Shown: positions 13,007 through 27,797 of the stretch, piece by piece
How positions within the stretch are numbered: the stretch's first letter is position 1
Layout: each line of letters opens with the position of its first letter
DNA from: a virus
DNA length: 28,266 nt
Virus record (IMG/VR): IMGVR_UViG_3300011114_000217
Coordinates: 1-28,266 of that record
Direction: 5' to 3' (one strand)
The notes under the pieces: generated by a model
The model's input: the letters and a program-made list of their open reading frames with translations, nothing else
Databases searched by the model: none
What the model was told of the DNA's origin: nothing
Translations under genes and position numbers: made by a program

Positions 13007-13260
13007 TACTTAGTTGCTTCTTCTGTGTCTTCTATTAAAGTATAAGACCCATCTTCTAAATTAATATTAATTGCGCCGTATTCTTCTTGCAATTCATTCT
13101 TAAATTCTTCAGCAACTTTATTTACTTCAGCTACTTGATGCAATAGGCTATGCTTTTGTGATTCTAGCAATCCAATATTTGTTAAAATATTTGCTAAATC
13201 TTTTTGATGCTTTAGAATTGTATTCAATTGCTCTTCTTTAATCTTTGTTGTTGTTTCCAT
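13006..13260 (-). CDS. Small coiled-coil protein of unknown function
   Basis: 84 residues. Residues ~5-60 form a heptad-rich coiled coil (TILKHQKDLANILTNIGLLE, then HSLLHQVAEVNKVAEEFKNE). A short conserved strand segment follows (YGAININLEDGSYTLIED). The C-terminus ends in acidic residues and forms a TAATG overlap with the next gene. A short coiled coil ending in a beta segment is loosely reminiscent of prefoldin-type holdases and of short phage scaffolds, but there is no decisive motif. Its neighbours are the Dps-like protein upstream and a conserved small gene plus the tandem GroES-like gene downstream. Confidence 0.6.
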   Translation of the reverse strand: METTTKIKEEQLNTILKHQKDLANILTNIGLLESQKHSLLHQVAEVNKVAEEFKNELQEEYGAININLEDGSYTLIEDTEEATK

Positions 13261-14248: not shown

Positions 14249-14506
14249 TTATTTTTTAAATATTTTATTGTATATTTCTTTTTTGTTTTTTATAACGTCT
14301 CCTAACATAGGGAACTCTAAAACAGTATCTCCAGGAAATGAATAATCTTCACCCGGTTGCATTTCCTTAGAATTGCCTTTATTATCTATACCTAATACGG
14401 GAAAATCTACATCTTTCATTGTGATCTCCCCGCTAGGTATTACATTGTAAGGTCTATCTTTATCAGGACTATTTTTTTTATAACCTGCTGTGGATAGATT
14501 TTTCAT
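14249..14506 (-). CDS. Small conserved virion-type protein with NSPDK / ITMKDV / PGEDYSFPGD motifs
   Basis: 85 residues. Conserved blocks in order: GYKKNSPDKDRPYNVIPSGE, ITMKDVDFPVLGIDNKGNSK, MQPGEDYSFPGDTVLEFPML, then a basic C-terminus (KNKKEIYNKIFKK). I recall this set (I-P-S-x-x-I-T-M ... P-V-x-G-I-D-x-x-G ... P-G-x-D-Y-x-F-P-G) as one of the commonest small proteins in marine Bacteroidota phages, function unknown. It directly follows the 335-residue tagged protein with no gap. The NSPDK near the N-terminus may be a weak form of the SP tag seen in other genes here. Confidence 0.65.
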   Translation of the reverse strand: MKNLSTAGYKKNSPDKDRPYNVIPSGEITMKDVDFPVLGIDNKGNSKEMQPGEDYSFPGDTVLEFPMLGDVIKNKKEIYNKIFKK

Positions 14507-15514
14507 TTAATATTTTTTCATTTTAATAGGGGCCTTTGCTTTCTTTTTTAATTGCATTGCAACAGGTTTATCAGTAGCGGTTCCTTTTTGAGAATTTCTA
14601 GCCGCTAGTCTTTCTTGTTTAGCTTTTTCTGCTAGTGCTTTGCGTTCTGCTATTCCTTTTAATGTTTCAGCTTTTTTTGCTGCTAATCTTTCTTGTATAG
14701 CTTTTTTATCTGCGTCTTTTTGATCAAGTTTAGTTATAGTGCTTTTAATATATTCTTGTCTTCTTTTTTCACCACTGCCTGGAGAAGTATCCATTGTTCT
14801 ATTAGGTCTATCTTTGCCTCGCATTGGACCATAATCACTCCAAGCATCATCGTATGGGCTAACAGAATTACTTCCATAAGCATTGCTAATTCTGTTTTCT
14901 TCTGCAGTAACTGGCTTTACATTAAAACTATTTTGACTGCTAGAAGCCATATTATTAGTTATCACATTTTTACCTTCATATTTGTCAATGTAATCTTTTT
15001 GTTGAGAAGATGATACAAAAGAATTATCATTTGTCCAACCAGACTCTGAACCTCCGCCAAAACCCGTATTGTTACCGGCAGTTCCTGTTTTATACCAACT
15101 TCCGTAGCTTTTAGGTTCTGCCGCAGTAGGTGTTATTGGAGTTGGCTTATCTACACCTGTATCTGATAATTTTACAGTTTCAGTTGCAGATCGCTTTTCA
15201 TATTTAGCTTTATTTTCTGCTGAGGCTGCCTTCCATTTTTTAATTTCAGCAGGAGTTTTAGCAAACCTTTCAACTTTTTGACCTTCTTTTTCAACAGTAG
15301 CTGTCCCTTCAAAATTTCTAATATTCTTAGAGTCTCCTTTATTTTCGCCAGCAGCTAATTGTTTTGCTTTTGCGTCAGCCTCCGCCTTTGCTTTAGCTTG
15401 AGCACTTAAGTCTTCACCCGTTCCTATATTTATTTTTGTTTGCATGAAAGGAGTAGGAATACCGTGTCCGGTTTTAGCAAAAGGGGATCTCCCTGGTTTC
15501 ATTTGAAATGCCAT
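14507..15514 (-). CDS. Large disordered SP-tagged protein, probable virion cargo
   Basis: 335 residues, with an opening MAFQMKPGRSPFAKTGHGIP that I recall from marine phage proteins. After this tag the protein is Ala/Lys/Gln/Ser/Thr-rich and mostly disordered. A charged helix (about 40-110), a Gly/Ser/Asn-rich middle (about 140-230) and a highly basic helical C-terminus (around RLAAKKAETLKGIAERKALA), ending KKKAKAPIKMKKY, make it look nucleic-acid-binding. Its opening is shared in outline with the genes starting at 27797, 18571 and 16281. It may be packaged or attached to the virion interior; no enzyme motif is present. Function is not recognised. Confidence 0.6.
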   Translation of the reverse strand: MAFQMKPGRSPFAKTGHGIPTPFMQTKINIGTGEDLSAQAKAKAEADAKAKQLAAGENKGDSKNIRNFEGTATVEKEGQKVERFAKTPAEIKKWKAASAENKAKYEKRSATETVKLSDTGVDKPTPITPTAAEPKSYGSWYKTGTAGNNTGFGGGSESGWTNDNSFVSSSQQKDYIDKYEGKNVITNNMASSSQNSFNVKPVTAEENRISNAYGSNSVSPYDDAWSDYGPMRGKDRPNRTMDTSPGSGEKRRQEYIKSTITKLDQKDADKKAIQERLAAKKAETLKGIAERKALAEKAKQERLAARNSQKGTATDKPVAMQLKKKAKAPIKMKKY

Positions 15515-15532
15515 TTTTTTATTTTTTTATTG

Positions 15533-15901
15533 TTATTTAATCTTAGTATATACTATTGTTCCGTTTCCGTCTCCAGTAATAACACATTTTAATGTATTTT
15601 TATCTATAAATGTATATGTGTTTTCAGTTACCCAATTATTAGGAATAAATATTGTTCTAATAAAAATGTAATCTTTTTCAACTCTTAATGTAATAACATC
15701 TACTGATCGACCTGAAGTACTACTTATTGACTGTGTTTGTAATCTGCCTAAAGAATCTTTCCAAAAAAATAATTCTGTACATTCTTGATCAGGTTTCCAA
15801 TAGCCAATTAAATCCTCAGTGTTAATTTTTTCTTTGCCAACTTGAGCGTTGACATTTAAACTAAACAATGCAACTGCAATAATTAAAAATGCTTTTTTCA
15901 T
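15533..15901 (-). CDS. Secreted lipocalin-like small protein (possible moron)
   Basis: 122 residues with a clear signal peptide: MKK, a hydrophobic core (AFLIIAVALFSL) and a probable cleavage after VNA before QVGKEK, the N-A-Q type common in Bacteroidota. The mature part (~102 residues) starts with a G-x-W motif (LIGYWKPDQECTELFFWKDS) and continues as alternating strands, as in small lipocalin-like barrels. It lacks an SP tag and looks host-derived. Exported proteins in late phage operons often alter the envelope, for example to block superinfection, but that role is speculative here. A perfect all-AT hairpin (15907-15934) lies in its leader. Only one Cys is present. Confidence 0.6.
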   Translation of the reverse strand: MKKAFLIIAVALFSLNVNAQVGKEKINTEDLIGYWKPDQECTELFFWKDSLGRLQTQSISSTSGRSVDVITLRVEKDYIFIRTIFIPNNWVTENTYTFIDKNTLKCVITGDGNGTIVYTKIK

Positions 15902-15951
15902 AATTAAATAATATTAGATTTATATAATATTATTATTACGCGCATTATGTA

Positions 15952-16281
15952 TTATTTAACTTTCTTTCCTTGCTTAGCGTAAGCTTCTTGCTCCCACGGT
16001 AAGTTTTTTGCGCCCTCTTGCATAGAGGCTCTAGGATATTTTTTTCCTTTCCAGATTACATGTGTGTCAGTATAATCTAAATCGCCACGTTTCATCTGAT
16101 CAATATGAACCATCTCATGTTCTATTGTCTTATTTTTTTTTAATTCTAACGGAGATATATTCTTATTTACTAATATGGTCCCATTTGATTGAGCCATACC
16201 CAAAACATTATCATCCATGTCCGTACTATAAATAGGTGTATTGTGCGCTTCGTAAGGCGCTCCTTTCATTATAAATGCCAT
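15952..16281 (-). CDS. Small zinc metallopeptidase-like protein (HEMVH) with virion-tag-like start
   Basis: 109 residues. His55-Glu56-Met-Val-His59 (HEMVH) is a zinc-binding HExxH helix, and Glu97 or Glu99 in LPWEQEAY about 40 residues later is a good third ligand, so a gluzincin-type site is complete. The body contains YSTDMDDNVLGMAQSNGTIL and GKKYPRASMQEGAKNLPWEQ. The opening MAFIMKGAPYEAHNTP resembles the MAF-x-x-K tags of other genes here, with A-P in place of S-P. It could be a virion-borne peptidase (cell-wall entry, or processing of structural proteins) or act on host proteins. A hairpin separates it from the preceding 89-residue gene. Peptidase family not assigned. Confidence 0.65.
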   Translation of the reverse strand: MAFIMKGAPYEAHNTPIYSTDMDDNVLGMAQSNGTILVNKNISPLELKKNKTIEHEMVHIDQMKRGDLDYTDTHVIWKGKKYPRASMQEGAKNLPWEQEAYAKQGKKVK

Positions 16282-16300
16282 TTGTATACGGTTTAAATTA

Positions 16301-16337
16301 TTAAATTCCCCTATAAATTACTCTATAGGGGATTTAA
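16301..16337 (-). terminator. Strong intergenic hairpin after the 89-residue gene
   Basis: CCCCTATA (16308-16315) pairs with TATAGGGG (16324-16331) around an 8-base loop. The stem is extended by TTAAAT/ATTTAA past a single bulged T, making about 14 bp in all. It starts nine bases past the stop of the 89-residue gene and precedes the metallopeptidase gene. No clear U-run follows in the minus-strand transcript, so terminator or mRNA-stabiliser are both possible. Confidence 0.5.
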
Positions 16338-16345
16338 AATTAATA

Positions 16346-16615
16346 TTACGATACTACCGCAGCAGTAACTGTTACTCCAGCAGGTAAATTTACTGGTGTT
16401 AAAATTGGACCAGATGGGCTTACAATAGCAGAAAGTACTGCGTTATAAAAACTAGTTGTTGTAGCTCCAGCAACTGTTAAGGTAAGAATCTTTGTTCCTA
16501 AATAAAGCACTACTGAAGTTGCGCTTACATAAGCTACATGCGTTATAGCGTTTACGTTTAATTGTAATGTTGGTGTACCAGTAATGGTGGTTGCAATAGA
16601 AATAAAATTTGCCAT
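16346..16615 (-). CDS. Small beta-rich protein, probable abundant virion (decoration-type) protein
   Basis: 89 residues, rich in Thr, Val, Ala and Ser with alternating strands: FISIATTITGTPTLQLNVNA, VVLYLGTKILTLTVAGATTT, a short helix (SFYNAVLSAIVSP) and PVNLPAGVTVTAAVVS. No Cys and no charged patches. Its leader (16616-16650) is a purine- and C-only stretch (AACAAACACAAACAAAAAAC), likely unstructured, and a strong hairpin follows the stop, so it looks like a separately regulated, highly expressed unit. A capsid decoration or tail-associated protein fits, but no family is recognised with certainty. Confidence 0.6.
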   Translation of the reverse strand: MANFISIATTITGTPTLQLNVNAITHVAYVSATSVVLYLGTKILTLTVAGATTTSFYNAVLSAIVSPSGPILTPVNLPAGVTVTAAVVS

Positions 16616-16670
16616 GTTTTTTGTTTTTTGTTTGTGTTTGTTTATTTACGTATATAAAGAATGTTAATCA

Positions 16671-16901
16671 CTAACATTTTTTCATTTTAGCAGGAGCTGA
16701 TTTAGTTCCTGTAGGTTTTGGCGATGCGGTTGCCCCCTTATTCATTGTTTGTTTCATTGGAGGTTTAACTTTTCCATATTCTTTTTTCATTTCTGCTTTT
16801 GATTCGCCTTTTTCATGCTTCATCATTGCTTTCTTAGAAGGATACGTTTCTCCTGTTGCTTTTTCTTTAACTACTTTCTTTTTTAATACTGGTGATTTCA
16901 T
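16671..16901 (-). CDS. Small very basic protein starting MKSPVLKKK
   Basis: 76 residues, about one third Lys. It opens with an SP tag (Ser3-Pro4) and continues with GETYPSKKAMMKHEKGESKA, then a proline/alanine-rich tail ending KSAPAKMKKC. Likely disordered, with strong positive charge suited to contact with DNA or RNA. Its C-terminal PAKMKKC resembles the basic end of the 335-residue tagged protein (PIKMKKY), a second sign of a shared design. The stop codon lies inside a 7-bp hairpin (16660-16678). Function unknown. Confidence 0.55.
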   Translation of the reverse strand: MKSPVLKKKVVKEKATGETYPSKKAMMKHEKGESKAEMKKEYGKVKPPMKQTMNKGATASPKPTGTKSAPAKMKKC

Positions 16902-16915
16902 AATATGATTTTTAT

Positions 16916-17491
16916 TTAATAAGGTTTTGTAAAAGTATTTTTTTTCTTTAATATATTTCCAAATAATTTTTTTGAAGCTGTTCCAGCTGGATCAAAAGCT
17001 TCTTGCCAAGATTTACCAATTTCTTCTTTACTAGGCGTTTCTGTTACTATTTTAGAATTAACATTTACAGGATTTTTTTTAACACCAACATCAGATTTTA
17101 AAGTTGGTTTTTCAATCTCATTATAAGTTTCAATTCTAGCGTTAGTTTTTGCTAATCTTTTATCAACATTTGCTGCTCTATTTGTAAGCCTTGTACTTGT
17201 ATCATAATCAGCTTTAGAGGCCCTATCTTTTAAGTCTTTAGATTTATTTTCTAATCTAGCTTGCTTTTTAAGATCTGAAGCATTGTCATCAGCAGCTGTT
17301 CTACTACCTAATGCAGCTCCAACTACTTTTCCAAAACCAGCAATAGATTCTGCAATGCCACCATCGTCATAAAGAGCATTTGGATTATATCCGCCACTTT
17401 CATAAACACCGCCTTCTCCCCCTTGATCTACCATACTTCTTTGAAGATGGAAAGGAGAACTACTATTTTTTTTAATTAGTCCTAAAGACAT
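16916..17491 (-). CDS. SP-tagged helical/disordered protein of unknown function
   Basis: 191 residues. It opens MSLGLIKKNSSSPFHLQRSM, an SP tag at Ser12-Pro13. A Gly/Tyr/Asn-rich segment follows (GGVYESGGYNPNALYDDGG), a short hydrophobic helix (SIAGFGKVVGAALG), then a long charged helix (about 65-130, with KDLKDRASKADYDTSTRLTN) and a basic C-terminus (NILKKKNTFTKPY). The short hydrophobic helix could touch membrane or pack in an assembly. It starts four bases after the 72-residue gene... on the upstream side, in a tight operon of similar tagged proteins. No enzymatic motif; probable virion-associated protein. Confidence 0.55.
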   Translation of the reverse strand: MSLGLIKKNSSSPFHLQRSMVDQGGEGGVYESGGYNPNALYDDGGIAESIAGFGKVVGAALGSRTAADDNASDLKKQARLENKSKDLKDRASKADYDTSTRLTNRAANVDKRLAKTNARIETYNEIEKPTLKSDVGVKKNPVNVNSKIVTETPSKEEIGKSWQEAFDPAGTASKKLFGNILKKKNTFTKPY

Positions 17492-17495
17492 ATTA

Positions 17496-17714
17496 TTAAA
17501 ATTTAGGTTTAGCTCTTTGCGTTATTGGTGCGCCGTTGTAATGCGGTTTTATATTGTTAAATATCATTCCATCTTTTCCAGCGCTATCACCTTTACCTTT
17601 AGGCAATGCGGTAGTATCAAACGGCCCATTCCATAGAGCATTTGCTCCAACCCCTGCTAAAGCAGCTTCTTTATCGTCCCTAGTCATAGGGTGTTTTCTA
17701 ACGTCTAAGTTCAT
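17496..17714 (-). CDS. Small conserved protein of unknown function (ALWNGPFD motif)
   Basis: 72 residues. It contains RKHPMTRDDKEAALAGVGAN, ALWNGPFDTTALPKGKGDSA and a basic C-terminus ending RAKPKF. No signal peptide, membrane segment or enzyme motif. It sits between two SP-tagged genes with gaps of two and four bases, so it is translated with them and is likely part of the same set, although its own N-terminus has H-P-M rather than S-P. Function not recognised. Confidence 0.5.
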   Translation of the reverse strand: MNLDVRKHPMTRDDKEAALAGVGANALWNGPFDTTALPKGKGDSAGKDGMIFNNIKPHYNGAPITQRAKPKF

Positions 17715-17716
17715 AA

Positions 17717-18571
17717 TTATTGATTTATATCGTAAATAGGTGTTGTTGGTACTTGCACTCCAAGCGGTGGTGGTATAGGCATTCCTGTGTTTACTGGCGC
17801 AGGTGCATTTGGATTTGTATTCATTGTAGGATCAATTTGATTACCTGTCAATGGATCTACCATTTGCATAAAAGGAGAATTAGGCACAGCCTTCCCCATC
17901 ATTTTTTCTATTGTTCCCGAATTGCTAAAAGCTTTAGGGCTAATTTTGTTATATTCCATTTGTTCTTTTTTTAATTGTGGAAACGGCGAGTTCATATTAT
18001 TTGGATCTACCATTATAGGACCAGCAGGATCACTAAACATTTGTCCTCCATTTGTTCTGTCATAAATATTAGTATTATGCGAATCTACTCTTCTTAATCC
18101 TCTGCCGTGCGTCCCTTGCATTACTGATTGAGGTCCGCCGTTAATTGTATTGGTTGGCACTGCCCCAAACCAATTTTGCCCTTTATTTGTTGATCTATTA
18201 CGCGTAACTGTTCCTGAGCTAGTTGCATTCCTAGTTGATGATACTGGCATTGCTGCTGCAGTTGCTGCTGCGGTCGCCGTTGCTGCCGCTGCTTGTTGGC
18301 CTTGTGTAATCCAACTATTTGGCCCAAAATCCTGTGTTGCATTGCTTGCTGGTTCTGGACTATTATAATATCCTGGTAATTGATTTGCATTTAAAGTTGG
18401 AGTAGTATTTACAGCACCTGCTAATCCCGCTGCCGCTGCTGCACCTGCTGGAGTATTACTATAAGCAATTTGAGCCGCTGTCATTGGAGGCGGTATAATA
18501 TTGCCTGCAATCGAACCAAATAAACTTGATGCGTTTTGTTGTAAAGGACTACTTCTTTGTTTAAAACTCAT
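17717..18571 (-). CDS. SP-tagged Pro/Ala/Asn-rich disordered protein, probable virion component
   Basis: 284 residues. It opens MSFKQRSSPLQQNASSLFGS (tag at Ser8-Pro9). A hydrophobic Ala/Gly/Pro stretch follows, then an alanine-rich run (QQAAAATATAAATAAAMP, about 92-110), an Asn/Gly/Arg middle and a proline-rich end (VNTGMPIPPPLGVQVPTTPI). Further SP repeats occur inside (NSPFPQLKK, ISPKAF, NSPFMQ), so the motif is iterated. The start overlaps the end of the winged-helix gene by 11 bases. Composition points to an extended structural or cargo protein rather than an enzyme. Confidence 0.55.
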   Translation of the reverse strand: MSFKQRSSPLQQNASSLFGSIAGNIIPPPMTAAQIAYSNTPAGAAAAAGLAGAVNTTPTLNANQLPGYYNSPEPASNATQDFGPNSWITQGQQAAAATATAAATAAAMPVSSTRNATSSGTVTRNRSTNKGQNWFGAVPTNTINGGPQSVMQGTHGRGLRRVDSHNTNIYDRTNGGQMFSDPAGPIMVDPNNMNSPFPQLKKEQMEYNKISPKAFSNSGTIEKMMGKAVPNSPFMQMVDPLTGNQIDPTMNTNPNAPAPVNTGMPIPPPLGVQVPTTPIYDINQ

Positions 18572-19013
18572 TATTTCGTGTTTTATCTTTATTTGTATTT
18601 TCTATAGCGGTTATCATTACTGTATCCATATATGTTTTACCGCTCATTATAGAATTTCTGTGACTTGTTGGTATATCTTCTTTACCTAACATTATACGAT
18701 ACATTTTGCTTATCAGTTGTTTACACTTGAATGAAACTTTATATATATTATATTTTTGAGTTGTGTGGTTATGATTTCTCCATACTACAATCCAACCCTC
18801 TTTCAATAAATTGTTCCAGCGTTTATTATCCCAACTATATGCGTAAGTACCTATTTTATAATCTTGTTTAGTAAAGAATTCCATGCAATCAAAATAGATT
18901 AGGAGTTCTAAATCGGCATCGGTTAAATTGTTATTCCTGCATGCCCATCTCCTTATTATTCTATAATGTTTTAGCAATCCTATTTCTTTAATATCACTAG
19001 CCTCCAGTCTCAT
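18561..19013 (-). CDS. Winged-helix (MarR-like) DNA-binding protein, candidate late regulator
   Basis: 150 residues. Residues ~15-110 fit a winged helix: LLKHYRIIRRWACRNNNLTD, a helix pair (ADLELLIYFDCMEFFTKQDY), a recognition-like helix (SWDNKRWNNLLKEGWIVVWR) and a wing (NHNHTTQKYNIYKVSFKCKQ), then a dimerisation-like helix (LISKMYRIMLGKED). The tail includes IPTSHRNSIMSGKTYMDTVM. I recall this as a common marine phage family without a proven role. It forms a TAATG overlap with groES, so it is made with the chaperonin. It could control late genes, possibly through the paired dyads at the right end, but this is inference. Confidence 0.6.
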   Translation of the reverse strand: MRLEASDIKEIGLLKHYRIIRRWACRNNNLTDADLELLIYFDCMEFFTKQDYKIGTYAYSWDNKRWNNLLKEGWIVVWRNHNHTTQKYNIYKVSFKCKQLISKMYRIMLGKEDIPTSHRNSIMSGKTYMDTVMITAIENTNKDKTRNNEF

Positions 19014-19273
19014 TATAAAACAACAACTACATCTTGAATTTTTATAACAAAATATGATTCTTTATCTAATTCTATTTTGTGACCAGCGTGTCTATCGTAA
19101 AAAATCAAATCATTTGGTTTAACCCCAACAACTTCATCCCCTACTGACATTACTTGCGCCTCCACATATCTAATATCTTCTCTTTGATTCTCAGCAAGTA
19201 GCAATCCTCCTTTTGTTGAGGTTGTACCTTCTTTTACTTTTTGTATAATTAAATTCCTACCTATTGCTTTCAT
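19013..19273 (-). CDS. groES: Co-chaperonin GroES
   Basis: 86 residues, slightly shorter than the ~97 of bacterial GroES. It keeps the start AIGRNLIIQKVKEG, a mobile loop (about 14-28) with the hydrophobic tripeptide as Leu24-Leu25-Leu26 after Gly22-Gly23 (GGIVL in Escherichia coli), the barrel core QVMSVGDEVVGVKPNDLIFY and the final strand YFVIKIQDVVVVL. It would cap the GroEL ring. The start forms a TAATG overlap with the end of groEL and its own stop overlaps the winged-helix gene, so the three are coupled. The order groEL then groES is the reverse of the usual bacterial groES-groEL operon. Confidence 0.88.
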   Translation of the reverse strand: MKAIGRNLIIQKVKEGTTSTKGGLLLAENQREDIRYVEAQVMSVGDEVVGVKPNDLIFYDRHAGHKIELDKESYFVIKIQDVVVVL

Positions 19274-20817
19274 TATGCTCTCAAGTTATTGATTACACAA
19301 TCGGTTGACAATATTGTTGTAGCAACAGATGCTGCGTTTCTTAATGCGCTTTTAGTAACTAACAAAGGATCAATTATACCGGCTTTAATCATATCAACAG
19401 TTTCGCCGGTTATAACATTAAGCCCATACCCAACCTTTGATATTATTTCTATTGGAGCATTTTCAATTCCTGCATTATCTAATATAGTTTTAAAAGGTGC
19501 TCTTATTGAATCTAATAATATTTCTTCTCCAACAGAGAATGTATCTATATTATGTGAAGCGTTTAGTAAAGCAATTCCTCCTCCTGGTACAATACCTTCT
19601 TTGATTGCTGCTTTAGTTGCACATATTGCATCTTCAATTCTATCTGCTTTTTCTTTTAATTCTATTTCAGAATTTGCACCCACTTTAACTATAGCAATTT
19701 TAGCTGTTAAACGAGCTAATCTTTTTTCTAGTTTTATAACAGTGTAATTTGGATTGTTTTCTAATAAAGCCTTTTTAATGTCATTTATTATTTCCAATAT
19801 ATCTGCAGGTGTTTCTCCCACATGAAGCACTGTTTCTTCATGACTAGTAATACTCTTAATACAATTTCCTAAATGCTCAGGTTGTATTAAATCTAAATCA
19901 TCTCCTAAATCTTCGTTTATAACAGTTGCCCCTGTTAATAAAGCTAAATCATCTAAAATTTCTTTTCTATTGATTCCAAAAGTAGGAGCATTGATAACAT
20001 TAACTTTTATATTGCCTTTAGATCTATTCATTGCTAAGGCAGATAATACGCCTTGCTCTAAATCTCCTATAATAAGTAATGACTTTTTGTTTTTTATAAC
20101 ATACTCTAATACAGTCTGTATTTGTCGTATGCTCTCAACAGGTGATTCAATTAGTAATACCAAAGGATTATCTAACTCTGCTGTTTTATTTTTTTGATTA
20201 GTTATAAAATGAGAATTTGTTAATCCCATGTTACATTGCACGCCCTCAACAACTTGTAGGCTGCACTCCGGATCTGAAGACGTTTCCATCATTACAATTC
20301 CAGTATTCCCTACCGATCTAAATGCGTCTCCAACTAACTTGCCTAGTTCAGGGTCGTTATTAGTGGATATTGTAGCTATCTGATCTAGCATTGCATCATC
20401 TACTTTTATAGAAAGATTATCTAAATATTCTATAACATTTTCAACAGCCTTATTTATGCCTTCTTTTAATTTTCTAGCATTTACATTTTCTAAAGCATAA
20501 GCATTTTTTAAAATAGAATGAGCTAATACTGTAGCGGTTGTAGTTCCATCACCTGCTTCTCTTACTGTTTTTCTAGCAGCTTCTTTTAATAAAGTTGCTC
20601 CCATGTTTTCTACCGGATCTAATAATATAATTGAATCCGCAACAGTAACACCGTCTTTTGTTATAACTGGTTTTCCAGTAGAGTCTTCTAAAAGAACACA
20701 TTTGCCACTGGCCCCTAATGTGGAACTAACAGCTTTAGTTAATTTTTCTATTCCAGCAAATACTTTATCACTAGCTTCTTTTCCAAAGCTTAGATTTTTG
20801 ACTATAGCTTCTGACAT
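19273..20817 (-). CDS. groEL: Chaperonin GroEL
   Basis: 514 residues (bacterial GroEL ~545), full-length across equatorial, intermediate and apical domains. ATP-site residues are intact: Asp55 in TKDGV, Asp90 in GDGTTTATV, Asp396 in RIEDA, the GGG at 412-414, and Asp483 in GIIDP. The apical substrate/GroES groove differs from E. coli by alignment: Tyr199 to Leu199, Tyr203 to His203, Leu234 to Gln234, Val263-Val264 to Ala262-Met263; Phe204, Leu237 and Leu259 are kept. The flexible Gly-Gly-Met tail is absent (ends TDCVINNLRA). It probably folds phage proteins such as the capsid protein. It lies after the lysis genes and is coupled to groES by TAATG. Virus-encoded GroEL is known from virioplankton and some jumbo phages. 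Confidence 0.92.
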   Translation of the reverse strand: MSEAIVKNLSFGKEASDKVFAGIEKLTKAVSSTLGASGKCVLLEDSTGKPVITKDGVTVADSIILLDPVENMGATLLKEAARKTVREAGDGTTTATVLAHSILKNAYALENVNARKLKEGINKAVENVIEYLDNLSIKVDDAMLDQIATISTNNDPELGKLVGDAFRSVGNTGIVMMETSSDPECSLQVVEGVQCNMGLTNSHFITNQKNKTAELDNPLVLLIESPVESIRQIQTVLEYVIKNKKSLLIIGDLEQGVLSALAMNRSKGNIKVNVINAPTFGINRKEILDDLALLTGATVINEDLGDDLDLIQPEHLGNCIKSITSHEETVLHVGETPADILEIINDIKKALLENNPNYTVIKLEKRLARLTAKIAIVKVGANSEIELKEKADRIEDAICATKAAIKEGIVPGGGIALLNASHNIDTFSVGEEILLDSIRAPFKTILDNAGIENAPIEIISKVGYGLNVITGETVDMIKAGIIDPLLVTKSALRNAASVATTILSTDCVINNLRA

Positions 20818-20876
20818 AATTTTATTTGATTAAATTTGATATAATTTATATATTACTTGTTTTTTACATTTTTTAC

Positions 20877-21008
20877 CTAACCTTGACCTCTGTATTTCTT
20901 TTTATAAAGTTTAGAGGTTTTAATTTTAGATGTTTTAGTTTTAGCGTGGACCCCAGGTCTTGAGATATCTTTTACAACCCTATTAACAACCGCCGTTTGT
21001 TTTGCCAT
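20877..21008 (-). CDS. 43-residue basic protein (KTKTSKIKTSK...YRGQG)
   Basis: A short minus-strand frame starts ATG at 21006-21008 and stops TAG at 20877-20879. The product begins MAKQTAVVNRVVKDISRPGV, then HAKTKTSKIKTSKLYKKKYR and GQG. I recognise the H-A-K-T-K-x-S-K ... Y-K-K-x-Y-x-G-Q-G pattern as a very widespread small protein of large marine phages, function unknown. It overlaps the spanin candidate's end by 37 bases and is the last gene before groEL, 59 bases upstream. Strong positive charge suggests nucleic acid or ribosome contact; this is a guess. Confidence 0.65.
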   Translation of the reverse strand: MAKQTAVVNRVVKDISRPGVHAKTKTSKIKTSKLYKKKYRGQG

Positions 21009-21460
21009 AATAAATATAATATTAATATTAATAAAAGTAACCAGATAATCCACCAATAATTTGCTTTTTTATCTATAGTCTTATTTTTAGTAGAAATTGT
21101 TTCTGTTTTATTTACTTTAGCAATTGCTACAGAGTCCGTATGCTTATTATTAGACTCTGTTTTGTTATTTGTATATAAAGTATTAACTTTATTTTTTTTT
21201 ATCTTTAAAACAACGTTTTTGTAAACCTTACCTTCTACAACAATTTCTTTACATGTATCAATTGGCGTAATTGTTATCTCGCTATTATCGATTGTTGTTA
21301 TTATATTAGTAGAATCTGTTTTCTGCTTTGTTTCTATTGTTGTAACTAAAACTTTTGTTTCAGCAATACTGTCTTTTTTTATATTAAGTTTATCTACTTG
21401 TACATGCCTACTTGCACATGATGTTAATATAATTAAAAATAATAATATAATTTTTTTCAT
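20972..21460 (-). CDS. Candidate unimolecular spanin (lipoprotein with C-terminal membrane span)
   Basis: 162 residues. The N-terminus is a lipoprotein signal (MKKIILLFLIILTSCASR, lipobox LTSC with Cys15). The middle (about 20-130) is a hydrophilic Thr/Lys/Asn-rich beta-type segment, and the C-terminus has one strong membrane helix (about 134-152, WWIIWLLLLILILYLLW) followed by basic residues (QNKRRLL). An outer-membrane lipid anchor and an inner-membrane helix on one chain is the defining layout of unimolecular spanins (T1 gp11 type), which fuse the two membranes in the last step of lysis. It is coupled by TAATG to the peptidoglycan-enzyme gene. Sequence identity is not expected in this class, so topology and context carry the call. 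Confidence 0.7.
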   Translation of the reverse strand: MKKIILLFLIILTSCASRHVQVDKLNIKKDSIAETKVLVTTIETKQKTDSTNIITTIDNSEITITPIDTCKEIVVEGKVYKNVVLKIKKNKVNTLYTNNKTESNNKHTDSVAIAKVNKTETISTKNKTIDKKANYWWIIWLLLLILILYLLWQNKRRLLIGL

Positions 21461-21846
21461 TATGATAATATAGTTATTGTTATATATTCTGCCGCCTGCA
21501 TTTTTTTAAATAATTTTTCAAAGGCTTTTCTTGATTGTCCTATATAGTTTTTATTTCTTGATTGCCCGACCAATATGCACCCTTCAGTATCGTGATTTGA
21601 ATTACCACTATGTATGCGCACTCCTTCAAAGTTAGGCACATCTAATAATAAAGGCAATAATCTTTTAAACCTATTAGACTCATTGATTATCACTTTATAT
21701 GTCCCCTTAGGTATTGCGGTTTCTCCTTTAATTTTTACTGCTCTTTCTGTGTCTTCTAATGTATAACATTGGAATAACCCATCAATTGACAATTCTCCTA
21801 TTGTAGACGTATCAGTCTTGTGTAGTCTCTTTACTGTTATCTGCAT
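21460..21846 (-). CDS. DUF5675 protein, YkuD-like peptidoglycan enzyme (candidate endolysin)
   Basis: 128 residues. Blocks in order: STIGELSIDGLFQCYTLEDT, IKGETAIPKGTYKVIINESN, FEGVRIHSGNSNHDTEGCIL and KAFEKLFKKMQAAEYITITI. This is the DUF5675 family as I recall it. His79 and Cys90 in I-H-S-G-N-x5-T-E-G-C parallel the catalytic His and Cys of L,D-transpeptidases (H-G-T ... S-H-G-C-x-R), so an L,D-transpeptidase/peptidase-type reaction on peptidoglycan is plausible. No signal peptide, as for a holin-dependent enzyme. It lies between two membrane-protein genes and the spanin candidate, starting 35 bases inside the 66-residue gene. The lytic role is inferred from context. Confidence 0.7.
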   Translation of the reverse strand: MQITVKRLHKTDTSTIGELSIDGLFQCYTLEDTERAVKIKGETAIPKGTYKVIINESNRFKRLLPLLLDVPNFEGVRIHSGNSNHDTEGCILVGQSRNKNYIGQSRKAFEKLFKKMQAAEYITITILS

Positions 21847-22012
21847 TTTTATTTCCTTTTATTTTAATTAATACCCAATCTGATATTTTCATTGATGTAT
21901 ATATTATTGATATTAACAATAATAGTATTTTTAGACTTGCTTCCAAATTTGTAAGACTCATTATAAGGGTTAGAGCGTTTAAAGAATAAACACGAATACT
22001 ACATTGATCCAT
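21812..22012 (-). CDS. Small membrane protein in the lysis cassette (second holin or antiholin candidate)
   Basis: 66 residues. The ATG at 22010-22012 shares a base with the stop of the holin candidate (TAATG), which fixes the start. A hydrophobic stretch spans about 10-45 (NALTLIMSLTN, then SLKILLLLISIIYTSM), giving one or two membrane spans. It is followed by a charged C-terminus (KIKGNKNADNSKETTQD). The C-terminus overlaps the DUF5675 gene by 35 bases. A partner of the upstream holin candidate is likely from position; holin, antiholin or unrelated membrane protein cannot be told apart by sequence. Confidence 0.5.
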   Translation of the reverse strand: MDQCSIRVYSLNALTLIMSLTNLEASLKILLLLISIIYTSMKISDWVLIKIKGNKNADNSKETTQD

Positions 22013-22194
22013 TATCTTTTAAGTTTATTAATAATGTCCGTAAATCCTTGAACCCCTACATATGCTGCAGCTATCATTGCAAAGTCGCCTGATGTTAAAT
22101 TGCCAGTAAATAATCCAGCGCATGAAACTATAAACACCATTAGTTTTCTACTAATCCATTTATTTAATAATATATCTATTTGTTCTTTACTCAT
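22012..22194 (-). CDS. Holin candidate (two membrane spans)
   Basis: 60 residues. A charged N-terminus (MSKEQIDILLNKWISRK) is followed by a hydrophobic segment (LMVFIVSCAGLFTGNL, about 18-33) and a second one (FAMIAAAYVGVQGFTDII, about 38-55), with a basic end (NKLKR). I recall K-W-I-S-R-K plus L-T-S-G-D followed by a second span as a common short holin-like layout in Bacteroidota phages. It lies first of the two membrane proteins directly before the peptidoglycan enzyme. Its stop overlaps the next start and its own start overlaps the stop of the 52-residue gene. Confidence 0.6.
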   Translation of the reverse strand: MSKEQIDILLNKWISRKLMVFIVSCAGLFTGNLTSGDFAMIAAAYVGVQGFTDIINKLKR

Positions 22195-22352
22195 TATTGT
22201 TGATTTTTAATCTCTTGTATTTCTTGGTATATTCTTAAAAGTTCTTCTTCTTTTTGTTTTAATAAATCTTCTTGAGGAATGTCCTCAACTTCAATATATT
22301 CAACTCTTATTAAACCATTATCATCATAAATTTCGTTTCTAATTTGTGCCAT
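22194..22352 (-). CDS. 52-residue acidic coiled-coil protein
   Basis: A minus-strand frame starts ATG at 22350-22352 and stops TAA at 22194-22196, sharing a base with the holin start (TAATG). The product opens MAQIRNEIYDDNGLIRVEYI, then EVEDIPQEDLLKQKEEELLR, and ends in a helix IYQEIQEIKNQQ. The second half is a heptad-type helix rich in Glu, Leu, Gln and Ile. The first half (N-E-I-Y-D-D-N-G-L-I-R-V-E) resembles a small beta hairpin. It lies between the fibre gene and the lysis genes; no function recognised. Confidence 0.6.
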   Translation of the reverse strand: MAQIRNEIYDDNGLIRVEYIEVEDIPQEDLLKQKEEELLRIYQEIQEIKNQQ

Positions 22353-22363
22353 AATTAATATTT

Positions 22364-25300
22364 TTATAAAGTTATACCTACTAAAAATGGATTTGAAAGT
22401 AAAAAAGGAGTTCCAAATGTAGCAGGTGCAGATCCGTAAGTTGCTGTTATATAATAAGCACTATAAACTGATGACGCGCTCCAAGAAATTGCAATTAAAC
22501 TGGATGATGCTAATGCACTTAATGTTTGAGTGCTAGAAGTGTGAACACCTATCCAATAAGTTGTTCCAGCTGTAAATGTTTGAACAGTTGTAGCTGTTTT
22601 CACACCTATTGTTGCGCAACTTAAATCTGCACTTTGATATAATCTTGTGTCTGGTTTTCCGTTTAAATCAGAATAAATTAAAATTTGAGCGTTTGAACCG
22701 ACTAATAAAACTGATACATTGATATATAAAGAAGCTGAAGTTATTGTTTGTACTGGAATAAACGGAGCGACTATTAATCTATTTGCTGTTGCCGCAGTAG
22801 CTAATGTGCCTCCTGCTGTAATACCTTGGGTTATACTATTTCCTACAGATGGTTTTATATAAGCATGAAGACCCTTAACTGATAAATCTCCACTTCCTAA
22901 AACAGTAGTTCCATTAATAGTTTTTATGTTGGTACCACTAATTAAATTATCTTGCTTTGATGCAATTTGTGTTTGTATTGCAGAAGTAACCCCTTTTACA
23001 TAACTTAATTCAGTAAGAGAAGGATATGTTGCTGTTGATAATGTTTGTATATTTTTGCTTGCATCTAATGCTAATAATTGCGAGGCGGTTAATGAACTTA
23101 ATATTGGCGGGGTAGAAAATGTTTTTGCACCAGCTATTGTTTGTCCATTTACAGTCATCAGCCCTCTTGCTGTTGCAGAAGCATCTGGTAAATTAAACGT
23201 GTGAGTTGTACCAGAAGAACTAATAGCAAAATCAGTTCCACTTGTTCCTGTGATTAATGTCTGAGACGCACCTGTTAAACTATTAATTGCGGTTATTCCA
23301 GTTCCTGCCATTATACCTGACTGCTGAGTAACAGTCATTACTACAGAAGCAGTTGATGGAGGAGGAGTTCCGGCGGGTTGAAAAGAAATATATACAGATG
23401 TATTCACTGTACTCCAAACAAATTCGTAATAATCACCTGCTACTACATCTAAAAGAAAATTCCATGAAGGGAGTGTGTGTCCATCGGCCGATCCGTGCTT
23501 AGCTGGAACTAAAACTATTCCTGAAGAACCTGGTACATCTGCACCGTTTTTTCTAAGCCAAATAGTGACATCGTGCTCTGCCGAAGTAGGATTAGTAAAT
23601 TGTGCTGACCATTGAATATTATATATTCCCGTGTTTGCAATTGTAATTCTTGAATTGCTAACTATAGTAACTCCATTAGACAAATCAGTTATGCCTAAAA
23701 GCATTGGGTAACCTGTATTAATTGCAGCGGCTGTTTGATTTGTTACGTCTTGAAATGCCCCATAATACCCTGTTGGTGTAGCAGCGGTATTAGTGCTCCA
23801 CTTTAACCCTGTTGATGTTGTACTATCTGCTAATAATACTTGAGTGTCTAATCCAACCGGTAATCTTGTGTTGGTTGTATTAAAAGTATATAAATCACCT
23901 TTAGTTGTAAGAGGCGAAGCAACTGGCGTTGGTATGTTTAATACATTAGCCACTAAAGTAGCTGCTCCCGTTCCTGTTGTTGTTAAACTTGTTATTCTAT
24001 TTGTATATGCCGTATCCCAATTTGCTGAATTATCAGTAATATAAGATATTGTACCGGCTGTAGATTTAACCAATCCCGTTCCACTTAGAGCGTTTTGCTT
24101 TGCATTCCAAGTAGACGCTGAGGTTATTCTACTATCGGCTAAAGTGCCTGACCAGCCTAATGTTAAAGATGTTGCTTGTAATAATGCAGTAGAAGGCGTT
24201 CCTCCTAGTGTTAGTGTTACATTTGTATCATCTGTTTTAGTTAAAGCAGCAGGTGTTACAGATGCCGTAGCATTTAATGTAGTGCCAGTAAAAGATAATC
24301 CTGTTCCTAACGTAATTTCTTCCATTATACCAGATCCAGCGGTAGATCTACCAATTAATTTATTAGTAGCCATTAATGTGGATATAACCGGAGTGGTTCC
24401 ACCTGAGGATACAATAGGGGATAATGCAGTAACACTGGTTACACCTCCTGCAATATCGGCTGTTGTAGCTATTGTATATGTTCCAACTGGTTTATTAGGA
24501 AATTCTAATATAACATTGTTTGTTATATTATTTATTCTAATAGATCCAAATGTATTATTTTTGTAAAATGTAATTTTACCGCCCCCGGCACTTGGCCCTC
24601 CAGAACTTAAATTTACAGATCCACTTGCAAGACCCTGATTCCAATCTAAATTGACGCCATTTGTATCAATTGCAGCAGTTCTATTTTCACCATTAAAGGC
24701 GGCAGTTGCAAGCATGCCGTATCCAGCATAATCTGCAGTATAATTTGTTTGAGTTGGCGAAATTAATTCGTAATAAGAATTCAACGATGTTAAAGTATCC
24801 GTATACGTATAATCCCCACTTAAATTGGTTAGTATTATACTATTGCCGGTAGTATTACCTGCTGTTGTAACATCGTCTAGTGTTGGCGTTCCACTACTGA
24901 AGGCAATTATATCATAATAATTATCTTTTAATATAACTCCATTTCCGCCTATATACTGTAAATCTAATGTATAAAAATACGGGTCTACTGTTACCGTATA
25001 GCCAGTTATTTTATAATTACCAAAAGTATTTATTTCGTTTTGATGCGCTATTAATATTTCTTTGCCGTTTAAGTAAGCTAAAAATATTTCTACCTCTTGC
25101 CCAGAAAGATCTATTGTAGATACTATAAATTGTGTTATACTTGAAAATGGAGTGTTGTTTCCTCCTCCTCCAGCAAATGATATTGTTTTGCTTAGGTTAT
25201 TGTATTCTGTAAATTTAAAGGACATCTGCCCGGTAATCGAAACTTTACCGTTTATATTTAAATAATTGGCAATTCCTTGTGCGGTATAATTTACAGTTGT

Positions 25301-25381
25301 ATTTGTTGCTGCTTTAGTTCCTAAGAATAAATCAGCATCTTCTATAATAACATCTTTTGGATATGAATTACCTATTGGCAT
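22364..25381 (-). CDS. Large tail/receptor-binding fibre protein with C1q-like knob
   Basis: 1005 residues. The N-terminus ([20 protein letters not shown]; residues 1-60) looks like a virion anchor. Residues ~60-310 are beta-rich. A repetitive shaft (~310-535) carries [20 protein letters not shown] and similar G/S/T runs. Residues ~538-685 form a C1q/TNF-like jelly roll ([20 protein letters not shown] to the strand [10 protein letters not shown]). A second shaft includes [20 protein letters not shown] and [11 protein letters not shown] (~808-836), a motif typical of Bacteroidota phage fibres. The C-terminal ~165 residues form another beta domain that probably binds the host surface. Gly/Ser/Thr richness and repeated TLGG/TGTT phrases support a trimeric fibre. 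Domain assignments are from pattern, not search. Confidence 0.75.
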
Positions 25382-25394
25382 ATTATTCTTTTTA

Positions 25395-25634
25395 TTATTC
25401 TGTTACCTGTACATCAGTTATTATTCCATTAACAACTGTTACTTGGGCATTTAATAAAGCATTAGTATCAAAAACACCATTCCAACCATTCCCGGTCACA
25501 GCGTTTACTGATAAATTAACTATATCTTGTATTGGAAAAGATTTAGTTGGTAAACCATCATCCTCATATTTTGTACCTATTATGTAATCTTGTGTTGTAG
25601 GGGTTGCCTGTGGGTAACTGTATATTATAGCCAT
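25395..25634 (-). CDS. Small fibre-anchor-like protein
   Basis: 79 residues. It opens [20 protein letters not shown] then [20 protein letters not shown], and ends [20 protein letters not shown] with a final strand pair ([14 protein letters not shown]). The opening parallels that of the fibre gene just downstream (SYP-x ... D-x-x-[IL]-G-T-K ... T-x-x-[FY]-x-x-Q-[DG]-I), so it may share a virion docking site. It may be a fibre adaptor or a short companion to the fibre. The leader is A/T-rich without a Shine-Dalgarno site. Confidence 0.55.
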
Positions 25635-25652
25635 TTGTATTTTATTTATTTA

Positions 25653-26009
25653 TTAACAATTCCACTTGTCTAACGCAAGTTTCTTTCTTGTTGGTTCTCC
25701 ATTTGGTTTTTTCATAGGGCCTGGCATGCCAGACATTCTAGCACAGAATGATTTTCTACGCTTAGCGTCTTTACTACCTGCTTTTAATTCAGATGGCTTT
25801 TTGGTTACCGCTGTTTGCAATTTGCTTCCAGGGTGTTCTGCTCTATAACTTGCAACCCCTTTTGCATTTAATCCTCCTTTAGGATCTTTACCTTCTTTAC
25901 GTGCCCAAGCAGCCGTTTTTTTTAACGGTGACTCCTCACAGTCACAACTACACTTGTGCTTTAACGCATCGTTATTTGCCGCAAAGTGATTTAATATTAC
26001 TGGTCTCAT
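25653..26009 (-). CDS. Small basic Cys-containing protein with SP motif (RRKSFCARMSGM type)
   Basis: 118 residues. Near the N-terminus is KHKCSCDCEESPLKKTAAWA, with Cys20, Cys22 and Cys24 before an S-P-L-K-K tag. Then KDPKGGLNAKGVASYRAEHP, a linker (about 60-82) and KRRKSFCARMSGMPGP, ending TRKKLALDKWNC. I recall the G-G-L-N-x-x-G-x-x-x-Y and R-R-K-S-F-C-A-R-M-S-G-M ... K-W-N-C blocks (DUF6321-like) in many marine phages, function unknown. The CSCDC motif is shared in outline with the next gene but one on its upstream side, 26293-26616. Positive charge suggests nucleic acid binding. Confidence 0.65.
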   Translation of the reverse strand: MRPVILNHFAANNDALKHKCSCDCEESPLKKTAAWARKEGKDPKGGLNAKGVASYRAEHPGSKLQTAVTKKPSELKAGSKDAKRRKSFCARMSGMPGPMKKPNGEPTRKKLALDKWNC

Positions 26010-26020
26010 ATATTTATTTT

Positions 26021-26293
26021 TTAAGAAACATTACTATTACTAGATCTTCTAGCTCCCATACCAACTTTCTTCTTTGCTGATACTACTTTTGATTTTTCAC
26101 CTTTAGACATTTCATTCCAAGGTTTAGGGGAATCGCCGCTAACCCTTACTGAAGGCCTGCATGCTTTTATCCCTTTTCTATCTGCTGATCCACATTCATT
26201 TCCTTTTTCATCTGTCCACTTTTCATCGAACCATCTTTTTAACGATGCTCCTTCTTCAGTCTTACGGATTGCTTGTAATGGTGAAGTATACAT
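26021..26293 (-). CDS. Small basic protein with MYTSPLQ start and KRWFDEKWTDE motif
   Basis: 90 residues. It opens MYTSPLQAIRKTEEGASLKR (SP tag at 4-5), then WFDEKWTDEKGNECGSADRK, GIKACRPSVRVSGDSPKPWN and a very basic C-terminus (KSKVVSAKKKVGMGARR). The [KR]-W-F-x-E-K-W-x-D ... C-G-x(5)-K-x-x-x-A-C-R-P-S pattern is one I recall from many large viruses and phages, related in style to DUF5872; function unknown. Two Cys (34 and 45) could bind metal or form a disulfide. Its start shares a base with the stop of the preceding gene (TAATG), so the two are co-translated. Confidence 0.65.
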   Translation of the reverse strand: MYTSPLQAIRKTEEGASLKRWFDEKWTDEKGNECGSADRKGIKACRPSVRVSGDSPKPWNEMSKGEKSKVVSAKKKVGMGARRSSNSNVS

Positions 26294-26616
26294 TATTTAT
26301 TTTTTCTGCATTTAGCAATAGCTCCAGAAGCGTAAGCCGAAGGAAATACTTTATATGACGCTTTTACTTTATTGTAACACGCATCTTTAAGTTTCAATGG
26401 TGATTTCTGTTTTACCGGCGAATCAATAACTCCTCTGCCAATTAAAACATCTTTCTGTGTAACTTTGCCGTCACCACTTAAATCCTTTAGTTTCTTAGCA
26501 GGGCTTTCATTGCAATCACATTTCCCATTGCATCCACATCTACCGCTTTTTCCAATAGTGTAACCGTTATTCGTTGGTCCACCTAACCCTTGAGGGCCTA
26601 TACCTTTTCCGTACAT
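26293..26616 (-). CDS. Cys-rich protein with an EF-hand/dockerin-type loop and SP motifs
   Basis: 107 residues. The N-terminal part is Gly-rich with four Cys in RCGCNGKCDCNESPAKK (27, 29, 33, 35). Residues 45-56 (DLSGDGKVTQKD) fit the 12-residue calcium loop of EF-hand or dockerin (D1, S3, D5, K7, T9, D12). Two more SP motifs follow (DSPVKQKSPLKLK), then a conserved C-terminus ACYNKVKASYKVFPSAYASG ending CRKNK. I recall the Y-K-V-[WF]-P-S-A-Y-A-S-G block from many marine phages. It could be a calcium- and metal-binding virion protein near the fibres. Function unknown. Confidence 0.6.
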   Translation of the reverse strand: MYGKGIGPQGLGGPTNNGYTIGKSGRCGCNGKCDCNESPAKKLKDLSGDGKVTQKDVLIGRGVIDSPVKQKSPLKLKDACYNKVKASYKVFPSAYASGAIAKCRKNK

Positions 26617-26622
26617 ACTGTT

Positions 26623-27456
26623 TTATTTTTTAGACTTTAATAAATCAATCTCGGCTTTTAATTCTTTAACCGCATTGATAAGAGCGAATGTTAAAGCAGT
26701 TGAATTAAAATCGTATAATTCAGTATTCTCTTTATCATCTTTATTTAATCTTGCTTTGTACGTGTTTACAGTCTCAGGAAATATATCTTTTATTTCTTGT
26801 GCAATCACGCCAGTATATTCTTTTCCTTTTATAGTATTAGCTAATCCATTGTATTTGTAATTAATCGGGTTTACTAATAGTATTTCATTTAATCCTTTAG
26901 TATAAGGCTTTATATCTTCTTTTACTCTAGAATCACTTAAAGCAGACCAAGCCCCTCCACCTGGTTTTGCAGCGTCCTGAGCTGCGACAAGGGAATAATT
27001 AAAATCAGAGGTAAAATAACCACCAATACCATTAATAGATATTCCATAAACACCGTAATTAGGTAGTGCGCCGGTAACTGCTCCACGAGCATCACCATAA
27101 ACCCCTGCAAGTCCGTCTGTTATTTGCCCAACAACTCCAATCCCACTTGTTGTTGTTCTTCCAAGTACACCATATTCTGTATCGCTATATCCTGCAATAC
27201 CATAGCCTGCAACACTAGTTCCGGAAATTGCCGTTGTAGCCCCAGCTACGGATGAAATAATACCAATATCAGTTGTATTTCCAATTGCCGTTACCGCTTG
27301 TAAGGACGCTACGTTACCCTCAAATGAAACGGTATCGATTACATCCTGCATTGTATACCATTGTTGCATCGCTTGCAACGCTGCGCTACCACCGTATATT
27401 GTATTAGCGCGTTTATCTACCATGAAAACTTTTTCTTCAGTTGGAATTAAAGACAT
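26623..27456 (-). CDS. Tail spike/fibre with S74 intramolecular chaperone domain
   Basis: 277 residues. The first ~50 residues form an N-terminal region (MSLIPTEEKVFMVDKRANTI, then QQWYTMQDVIDTV). Residues ~55-150 hold short glycine-led repeats (GYGIAGYSDTEYGVLG, IGVVGQITDGLAGVYG), as in fibre shafts. Residues ~170-277 are a peptidase S74 chaperone-of-endosialidase domain: LSDSRVKEDIKPYTKGLNEI, then EYTGVIAQEIKDIFPETV, and a final helix (NAVKELKAEIDLLKSKK). Ser174 and Lys179, five apart in S-D-x-R-x-K, match the known Ser-Lys dyad, so self-cleavage after trimer assembly is expected. It adds a second adsorption protein beside the long fibre. Confidence 0.8.
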   Translation of the reverse strand: MSLIPTEEKVFMVDKRANTIYGGSAALQAMQQWYTMQDVIDTVSFEGNVASLQAVTAIGNTTDIGIISSVAGATTAISGTSVAGYGIAGYSDTEYGVLGRTTTSGIGVVGQITDGLAGVYGDARGAVTGALPNYGVYGISINGIGGYFTSDFNYSLVAAQDAAKPGGGAWSALSDSRVKEDIKPYTKGLNEILLVNPINYKYNGLANTIKGKEYTGVIAQEIKDIFPETVNTYKARLNKDDKENTELYDFNSTALTFALINAVKELKAEIDLLKSKK

Positions 27457-27461
27457 ATTAT

Positions 27462-27797
27462 TTATTTTTTAGTTATTTTATAATGTTTACCACTCTCGGA
27501 TTTTGTGCCATTCCCATCGTTACCTCTATTTCTAGAAGGCGTTTCCCAGTGCTGATCTTCATGATCCCAATCCATACCTTTACCCTTAGGATCTGCTCTA
27601 TGCTTTCTTTGGTCCTCTGCTTTCTTAGCTCTTCTATCTGGAGTCTTAGCATAAGCCAAATCCCTCGCCGCTTTAGCCTTAGCCGCTTTAGGCGATAACT
27701 TCTGTTTCATCAAAGGCGAATCATCTCCAATTCCTTCGTTTCCATAAACGTAGTCGGTTTGCTTTATAGGAGATTGCGATCTTAATTTAAACGCCAT
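27462..27797 (-). CDS. Basic SP-tagged protein (first gene of the block)
   Basis: 111 residues. It opens MAFKLRSQSPIKQTDYVYGN with the SP tag at 9-10, and repeats it in DDSPLMKQ and KLSPKAAK. The middle is a basic, Lys/Ala/Arg-rich helix (about 36-70), followed by KGMDWDHEDQHWETPSRNRG and NDGNGTKSESGKHYKITKK. I recall the D-W-D-H ... N-R-G-N-x-G-x-G-T-K-x-E ending from many marine phages; whether it is a reduced HNH-type nuclease or only a structural motif is unclear, and a full HNH site is not visible. As the first gene in the minus-strand run it lies downstream of any promoter in 27798-28070. Confidence 0.6.
   Translation of the reverse strand: MAFKLRSQSPIKQTDYVYGNEGIGDDSPLMKQKLSPKAAKAKAARDLAYAKTPDRRAKKAEDQRKHRADPKGKGMDWDHEDQHWETPSRNRGNDGNGTKSESGKHYKITKK

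Follow-up and report, generated by a model that had tools for sequence, protein, structure and literature searches.

A two-part N-terminal tag on unrelated small late proteins of one crAss-like phage clade, a candidate label for loading into the particle

The capsid targeting sequence (CTS) of bacteriophage T4 is the sole conserved part of a group of highly diverse small internal proteins and loads them into the scaffolding core (PMC3012670). Excerpts of a study of phi-crAss001 describe the cargo proteins gp45, gp46, gp47, gp49 and gp50 and cargo zones in capsid and tail; those passages describe no N-terminal tag shared by the cargo and nowhere use the words protease, cleavage or scaffold (PMC10172136). 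For SPN3US, passages of a further report state that diverse head proteins enter the cell and that a prohead protease cleaves eight of the proteins found in the mature head (PMC7411985). Here we describe a two-part N-terminal tag carried by small, otherwise unrelated late proteins, among them several encoded by the uncultured virus record IMGVR_UViG_3300011114_000217 (the window, by which we mean the whole stretch analysed, 28,266 bases, with nearly all of its genes on the minus strand), and we consider whether it labels proteins for loading into the particle.

The first half of the tag is a start, M-[AG]-[FY]-K-[MLI]-K-(G), with consensus M-[AG]-[FY]-K-[ML]-K-G, and the second, hereafter the SP half, is [S/T]-P-[LFMI]-x-[K/Q], with consensus S/T-P-[LFM]-K-Q; the two are separated by 1 to about 30 residues. 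Like the CTS of the T4 proteins IPI, IPII and IPIII, the tag is a constant short N-terminal segment placed on variable basic bodies encoded by late genes, and the conserved segment on unrelated proteins that distinguishes the T4 signal is found here as well. The likeness is one of layout only: the tag belongs to a crAss-like lineage, has two parts and stands on far more families, and we claim no sequence homology. The virion of phi-crAss001 is of a related type, but its cargo, as given in the passages cited above, consists of large conserved proteins, whereas the tag is found mainly on small variable ones. Giant phages such as SPN3US, in which many diverse proteins lie inside the head, are compared here by description; unlike SPN3US as described in that report, the tagged phages have no identified prohead protease, a metallopeptidase discussed below being a candidate only. 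The strings MAFKMKG, MAYKMKG and SPFKQ were not found in a search of the open literature, and the tag is apparently undescribed.

The tag is real and clade-wide, and its carriers form a large group of phages that are uncultured and mostly marine. A scan of IMG/VR with one DNA pattern for the start M[AG][FY]KMKG returned at least 120 stretches; among the matches listed, 40 of the 41 longer contigs tested encode a terminase 72-90% identical to that of the window. The large subunit of this terminase (9732..11954, minus strand) defines the tagged clade at about 72% identity or more. When a viral collection was scanned for MAFK[ML/I]...SPLKQ, 11 sites were found, each of them in frame, and the scrambled PSLKQ yielded two; all 10 contigs matched by the combined start and SPLKQ scan carry the clade terminase. 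The complete element stands on unrelated bodies in these scanned contigs (MAFKMKGSNFYGSPLKQ, MAFKMRGMSFGNSPLKQ, MAYKMKGSSFYSSPMKQ), and a single contig may hold up to 10 start-tagged genes. The 80 relatives found by terminase show tagging of the same kind upstream of it. A 20-residue tag query against 50,697 phage records found no match, and tags are absent from sister lineages (terminase 62-67%) and from cultured phages. The cultured relatives, namely Cellulophaga phi40:1/phi38:1 (Pervagoviridae), Elemovirus, Maribacter phage Panino and MW202828, have a homologous terminase, portal, capsid and tail module and have neither MAFKMKG/SPLKQ tags nor the metallopeptidase family. The survey of phage collections suggested in a first-pass annotation of the window thus finds the tag concentrated in one terminase-defined clade.

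Permutation controls at the level of families support the tag. When proteins were clustered with the tag masked, 221 of 1319 families had a tagged member, 155 of them singletons; gene calls were mechanical (longest ATG open reading frames) and some starts may be wrong. The SP half occurs within residues 2-40 in 125 families, compared with 26-32 for each of five permutations of the order of S, P and the hydrophobic residue. On contigs selected by terminase only, the counts are 28 families versus 4-9 within residues 2-40 and 21 versus 3-5 within residues 2-20. Counts of individual genes separated poorly (33 for SP versus 35 for SLP and 53 for LPS), which we suppose to be due to the conserved portal N-terminus SAFPSQ and which the family-level counts resolve. 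The two halves also predict each other: selecting by the SP half yields starts with A-F-K-M-K-G, and selecting by the start yields SP sites with P-[LFM]-K-Q, a pattern not seen at control SP sites. The suggested enrichment in late genes was borne out on 19 contigs of 45 kb or more, some of which had been picked by the tag while the late/early split had not: the SP half is confined to the late strand (59 of 832 genes, versus 0 of 491 on the early strand), and the start half is found on 61 late-strand genes and 1 early-strand gene. Codons of the tag differ synonymously (GCA/GCT/GCG, GGA/GGT/GGC) and the DNA upstream is not common to the tagged genes, so selection acts on the protein.

The window itself is a weak case of the tag, which is far clearer in relatives (for example MAFKMKGSSFYGSPLKQ). 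Every peptide cited in the first-pass annotation is present in a minus-strand open reading frame, the number given for each being the high coordinate of that frame. With the motif SP[LFIVM]x0-2[KQ] and 1000 within-protein shuffles as control, we find 8 matches in 7 proteins within residues 1-30, against a mean of 0.16 in the shuffles, none of which gave 8; over full-length proteins the numbers are 16 and 1.8. The proposed enrichment therefore stands, but not every motif is N-terminal. The location fails for the 107-residue protein at 26293..26616, where SPAKK, SPVKQ and SPLKL lie at residues 38, 66 and 72 ahead of a KDACYNKVKASYKVFPSAYASG domain (phrog_727, phrog_3477), and for two of three copies (SPFPQ at 195, SPFMQ at 232) in a tagged 284-residue ORFan at 17717..18571 (MSFKQRSSPLQQ) that has no family match in Pfam or PHROGs. 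Three proteins share the reported opening M-[AS]-F-x-x-[KR], with MAFKLR at 27462..27797, MAFQMK at 14507..15514 and MSFKQR at 17717..18571, and a related MAFIMKG begins the metallopeptidase at 15952..16281.

Both halves are present in the small basic protein at 27462..27797 (111 residues, MAFKLRSQSPIKQ...SPLMKQ), and a 335-residue low-complexity protein at 14507..15514, probably disordered, is tagged MAFQMKPGRSPFAK...TPFMQ. A DUF5872 protein at 26021..26293 (PF19197, E=7.4e-14) has the SP half only (MYTSPLQA), and a relative at L176:7812-8072 bears the complete tag MGFKMKGSPLQK; similarly, a DUF6321 protein at 25653..26009 (PF19846, E=8.1e-23) has SPLKK at residue 27 and a relative at L158:1868-2179 bears MAFKMKGSCFQSPLKK. 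The remaining carriers are a 191-residue protein with the SP half SSSPFHLQ (16916..17491) and a small basic protein of 76 residues with MKSPVLKK (16671..16901). A VIPSGEITMKDVDFPVLG-domain protein at 14249..14506 is untagged in the window and matches phrog_36695, a virion structural protein (E=5.6e-10); a relative at L218:4325-4846 is tagged MAFKMKGFSGFK, and phrog_36695 is matched too (E=1.2e-6) by one member of the group of tagged proteins to which this relative belongs. All of these window genes lie on the minus strand. Half of the family of 26293..26616 (11 of 22 members) is tagged. Pfam named DUF5872 and DUF6321 for two window proteins and gave no name for most. A match of 16916..17491 to a head scaffolding protein (phrog_206, E=1.7e-4) is weak, may be compositional and is not relied on.

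The bodies that bear the tag are unrelated and mostly basic, in agreement with the first description of them, and the SP half alone spans 125 families. Tagged proteins have a median length of 118 residues and a median isoelectric point of 9.9, compared with 6.1, with 82% above 9, and are poorer in hydrophobic residues than the comparison set; singletons make up 53 of 138 tagged late proteins versus 146 of 1145 untagged ones. Tagged families include an HExxH metallopeptidase, DUF6321, DUF5872, a PSAYASG domain, phrog_6437 and a VIPSGNITMKDV domain. Of 99 tagged proteins, few received a Pfam name, and the PHROGs functions, where given, are mostly virion structural protein or internal virion protein with endolysin domain. 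A tagged SLT transglycosylase (L291:1939-3600) is of the internal-virion-protein type, and one contig tags a muzzle-like protein, a family-20 protein and an adjacent giant protein (MKKSSPLK, KPSPLK and MRKPSPLK). Tags are essentially missing from the conserved terminase, portal, capsid and chaperonin proteins and from most of the remaining large late families, and the rare exceptions look like chance hits of the search pattern.

Only two tagged families, 40 and 20, have clear homologues in cultured relatives, and the homologues in the Cellulophaga, Elemovirus and Maribacter phages are untagged. The profile of family 40, which includes 27462..27797, matches gp080 of phi40:1 (E=2.9e-29), and that of family 20 matches gp099 of phi40:1 and gp120 of phi18:3 (E about 1e-36); gp080, gp099 and gp120 are all annotated as structural by experimental tandem mass spectrometry (MS/MS). 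The window protein matches phrog_6437 with E=8.6e-5, and the phi38:1 copy does so with E=2.7e-22. Homology of 27462..27797 to gp080, weak by pairwise BLASTP, was settled by profile search; a tblastn search with the window protein against phages found nothing. As judged by homology, these matches support the location of the two families and not a need for the tag. We note that the GenBank notes for gp69, gp77 and gp80 in NC_021796 cite 'Cellulophaga phage phi18:1' gp69/77/80. However, phi18:1 has a genome of 39 kb and 65 features, and the source annotated by MS/MS appears to be phi40:1; a paper on Cellulophaga methylation does not mention gp80 or gp69.

We have also found a likeness between the tag start and the ends of a scaffold-like protein of 396 residues encoded between the portal and major capsid genes (6120..7310, minus strand). 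This protein has QEGDFKISK near its N-terminus and SSKLRIQTKKFNN at its C-terminus, both of which resemble the tag start, and its homologue in phi40:1, gp092 (E=3.5e-79), is structural by MS/MS annotation. Its predicted model has a helical core and disordered tails that hold the tag-like motifs, an arrangement common among scaffolding proteins; Foldseek found no match for it. Starts of the form M.{0,2}[FIL]K[VIML][KR] occur on 9 of 585 proteins of the sister lineages, and 8 of the 9 are the protein of this portal-capsid interval (MEIKVKEV, MEFKVKAI, MFKMKLEG). In the tagged clade, [FL]K[IVMFL][KR] lies in the N-terminal 45 residues of the interval protein in 51% and in the C-terminal 22 residues in 74%, and at one or both ends in 64 of 72; the family ranks first of 78 for the C-terminal motif and is top among untagged families N-terminally. 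We therefore propose, as a lead from a post hoc comparison of short motifs, that the tag mimics a peptide by which the scaffold docks.

Taken together, we think it probable, with real room for doubt, that the tag is a modular N-terminal address label which, in one crAss-like clade, directs small accessory proteins into the particle. The first-pass annotation had offered a targeting signal or a protease site as explanations. A common tag on unrelated proteins, the premise of the former, is strongly supported, and loading is the best fit for its role given the exclusivity for the late strand, the MS/MS-annotated homologues, the tagged transglycosylase and the likeness to the termini of the portal-capsid-interval protein. 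Packaging, a docking site, injection and removal of the tag are parts of the loading reading that we infer. During head assembly, the anchors would dock where the termini of the scaffold-like protein (6120-7310) dock, on a surface that may be the inner face of the capsid protein (the major capsid protein, 4645..6108, is a possible receptor), the portal or the scaffold core; the basic, mostly disordered bodies would be trapped along with the DNA, and the cargo would probably be delivered to the next host, to serve in defence or take-over.

Several points weigh against loading. The tag is on a minority of members of families 20 and 40, whose MS/MS-annotated homologues carry none, indicating that these families can enter virions untagged; more generally, the MS-mapped Cellulophaga phages and other cultured relatives have essentially no tags, which makes the link to the virion an indirect one, by homology. 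The large conserved proteins of the ejection block are mostly without the tag, and members are heterogeneous, with some families holding just one half. We call the interval protein scaffold-like on grounds of its gene position, disordered tails and composition, and the FKxK comparison is short and was made after the fact. A broader form of the loading hypothesis, which we hold only tentatively, is that the clade turned a scaffold-like terminus into a general tag able to load almost any small protein, giving more than 100 swappable, fast-evolving families of injected effectors.

A considerably less likely possibility is that the tag gathers late accessory proteins on the scaffold or where heads are assembled and that these leave before the head matures, making it an assembly or chaperone-client signal. 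Restriction to the late strand and likeness to the scaffold-like protein also suit this explanation, and a phage GroEL and two GroES-like proteins are encoded in the same operon. The same GroEL/GroES set is found, however, in sister and cultured phages that have no tags, for which reason we have downgraded the chaperonin-client version, and MS/MS annotation lists homologues of two tagged families among the virion components.

Processing at the tag by a maturation protease is in our view improbable; the enzyme would perhaps be the clade-specific metallopeptidase, whose own N-terminus has a start half (MAFIMKGAP...NTPIY; 15952..16281, minus strand). T4-type loading tags are removable by a prohead protease, and the distribution of the metallopeptidase (family 6) matches that of the tag: almost every clade contig spanning the region has the family, none of the sisters does, and a profile search found no match in cultured relatives. 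Its 112 clade members nearly all begin M[AG][FY]K[ML], with H55, E56, H59 and E97 invariant and M1, F3 and K4 conserved in at least 90%. Many clade-specific genes have the same distribution, however, and the fold match is weak, Foldseek having found only weak matches to minigluzincins and PprI for a model with an AlphaFold pLDDT (predicted local distance difference test) score of 78. We find no positive evidence for the proposed protease site: the tag has no invariant position of scissile type, its conserved residues fall in two separate blocks, and it is the whole two-part element that is conserved. For the metallopeptidase, the roles of loaded effector and of maturation protease are both possible.

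We give similarly little credence to targeting within the host late in infection (to membrane, nucleoid or secretion machinery) with no packaging. Many tagged proteins are indeed ORFans with no structural annotation, but the tag lacks the hydrophobic core of a Sec/TAT signal peptide, its logo alternating K with F/M before S-P-L-K-Q, and restriction to one clade argues for a reader encoded by the phage. Slightly less probable still is that the SP half forms a DNA-binding turn like that of histone SPKK, as part of DNA-condensing proteins; although the bodies are strongly basic, P is followed by a hydrophobic and not a basic residue, and protein docking is what the conserved F3, M5 and L/F seem suited to. 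Lastly, the tag could be an artefact of composition, these phages being AT-rich and their small proteins rich in Lys, or could stem from recent duplication of a single 5' end. This is contradicted by the permutation controls, the synonymous variation with unrelated upstream DNA and the complete lack of SP halves on the early strand, and we consider it very improbable indeed.

The gene order of the window from its low end is tail protein, capsid protein, the 396-residue protein, portal and terminase, and beyond the terminase lie lysis, chaperonin and fibre genes and numerous small genes. The major capsid protein matches Cellulophaga phage proteins, phi40:1 gp093 among them, whose annotation is structural or major capsid protein, and the portal protein (7345..9735, minus strand, as is the capsid gene) is homologous to phi40:1 gp091 and the P22-like portal of MW202828. 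Terminase, portal and capsid are thus homologous to the phi40:1/phi38:1 structural module, as expected of a crAss-like phage, and the nearest named relatives are Pervagoviridae and Elemovirus; a muzzle C-terminal domain match in one clade member lies under the curated cutoff. Clade-related terminase contigs (L315-L341) have been binned into metagenome-assembled genomes of archaea, Aliivibrio, Pelagibacter, Desulfobacteraceae and Bacteroidota, and one (L336) is reported within an Aenigmatarchaeota chromosome; these inconsistent placements are probably binning or assembly errors. Hosts of the tagged phages probably belong to the Bacteroidota. The two GroES-like proteins, a 202-residue form beside the terminase gene (12171-12779) and a canonical 86-residue form adjoining GroEL (19013-19273), are both kept throughout the clade and cultured relatives. 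A small protein near the terminase (13006-13260; family 2, 136 members) is found in the clade and most of the 65-67% sisters, with no profile match in cultured relatives. DUF6321 and the PSAYASG domain, separate small genes at 25653-26616, match large PHROG profiles of 450-928 columns (phrog_727, phrog_3477, phrog_10346), which suggests that they are fused in other phages. A second recurrent N-terminal block, KQSPGRxNMPKTGRGIPS or MKPGRSPFxKTGHGIP, is found on several otherwise different proteins of window-like phages (L282:10320-11453, window 14507-15514, L285:1566-2561 and L150:6661-7326).

Should the tag prove to label proteins for packaging, the virion cargo of this clade, many ORFans included, could be listed from a simple N-terminal pattern, which would also mark candidate counter-defence and take-over proteins. 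The protein of the portal-capsid interval points to a candidate docking site. The tag could also be put to use as a short natural label for loading proteins into phage heads.

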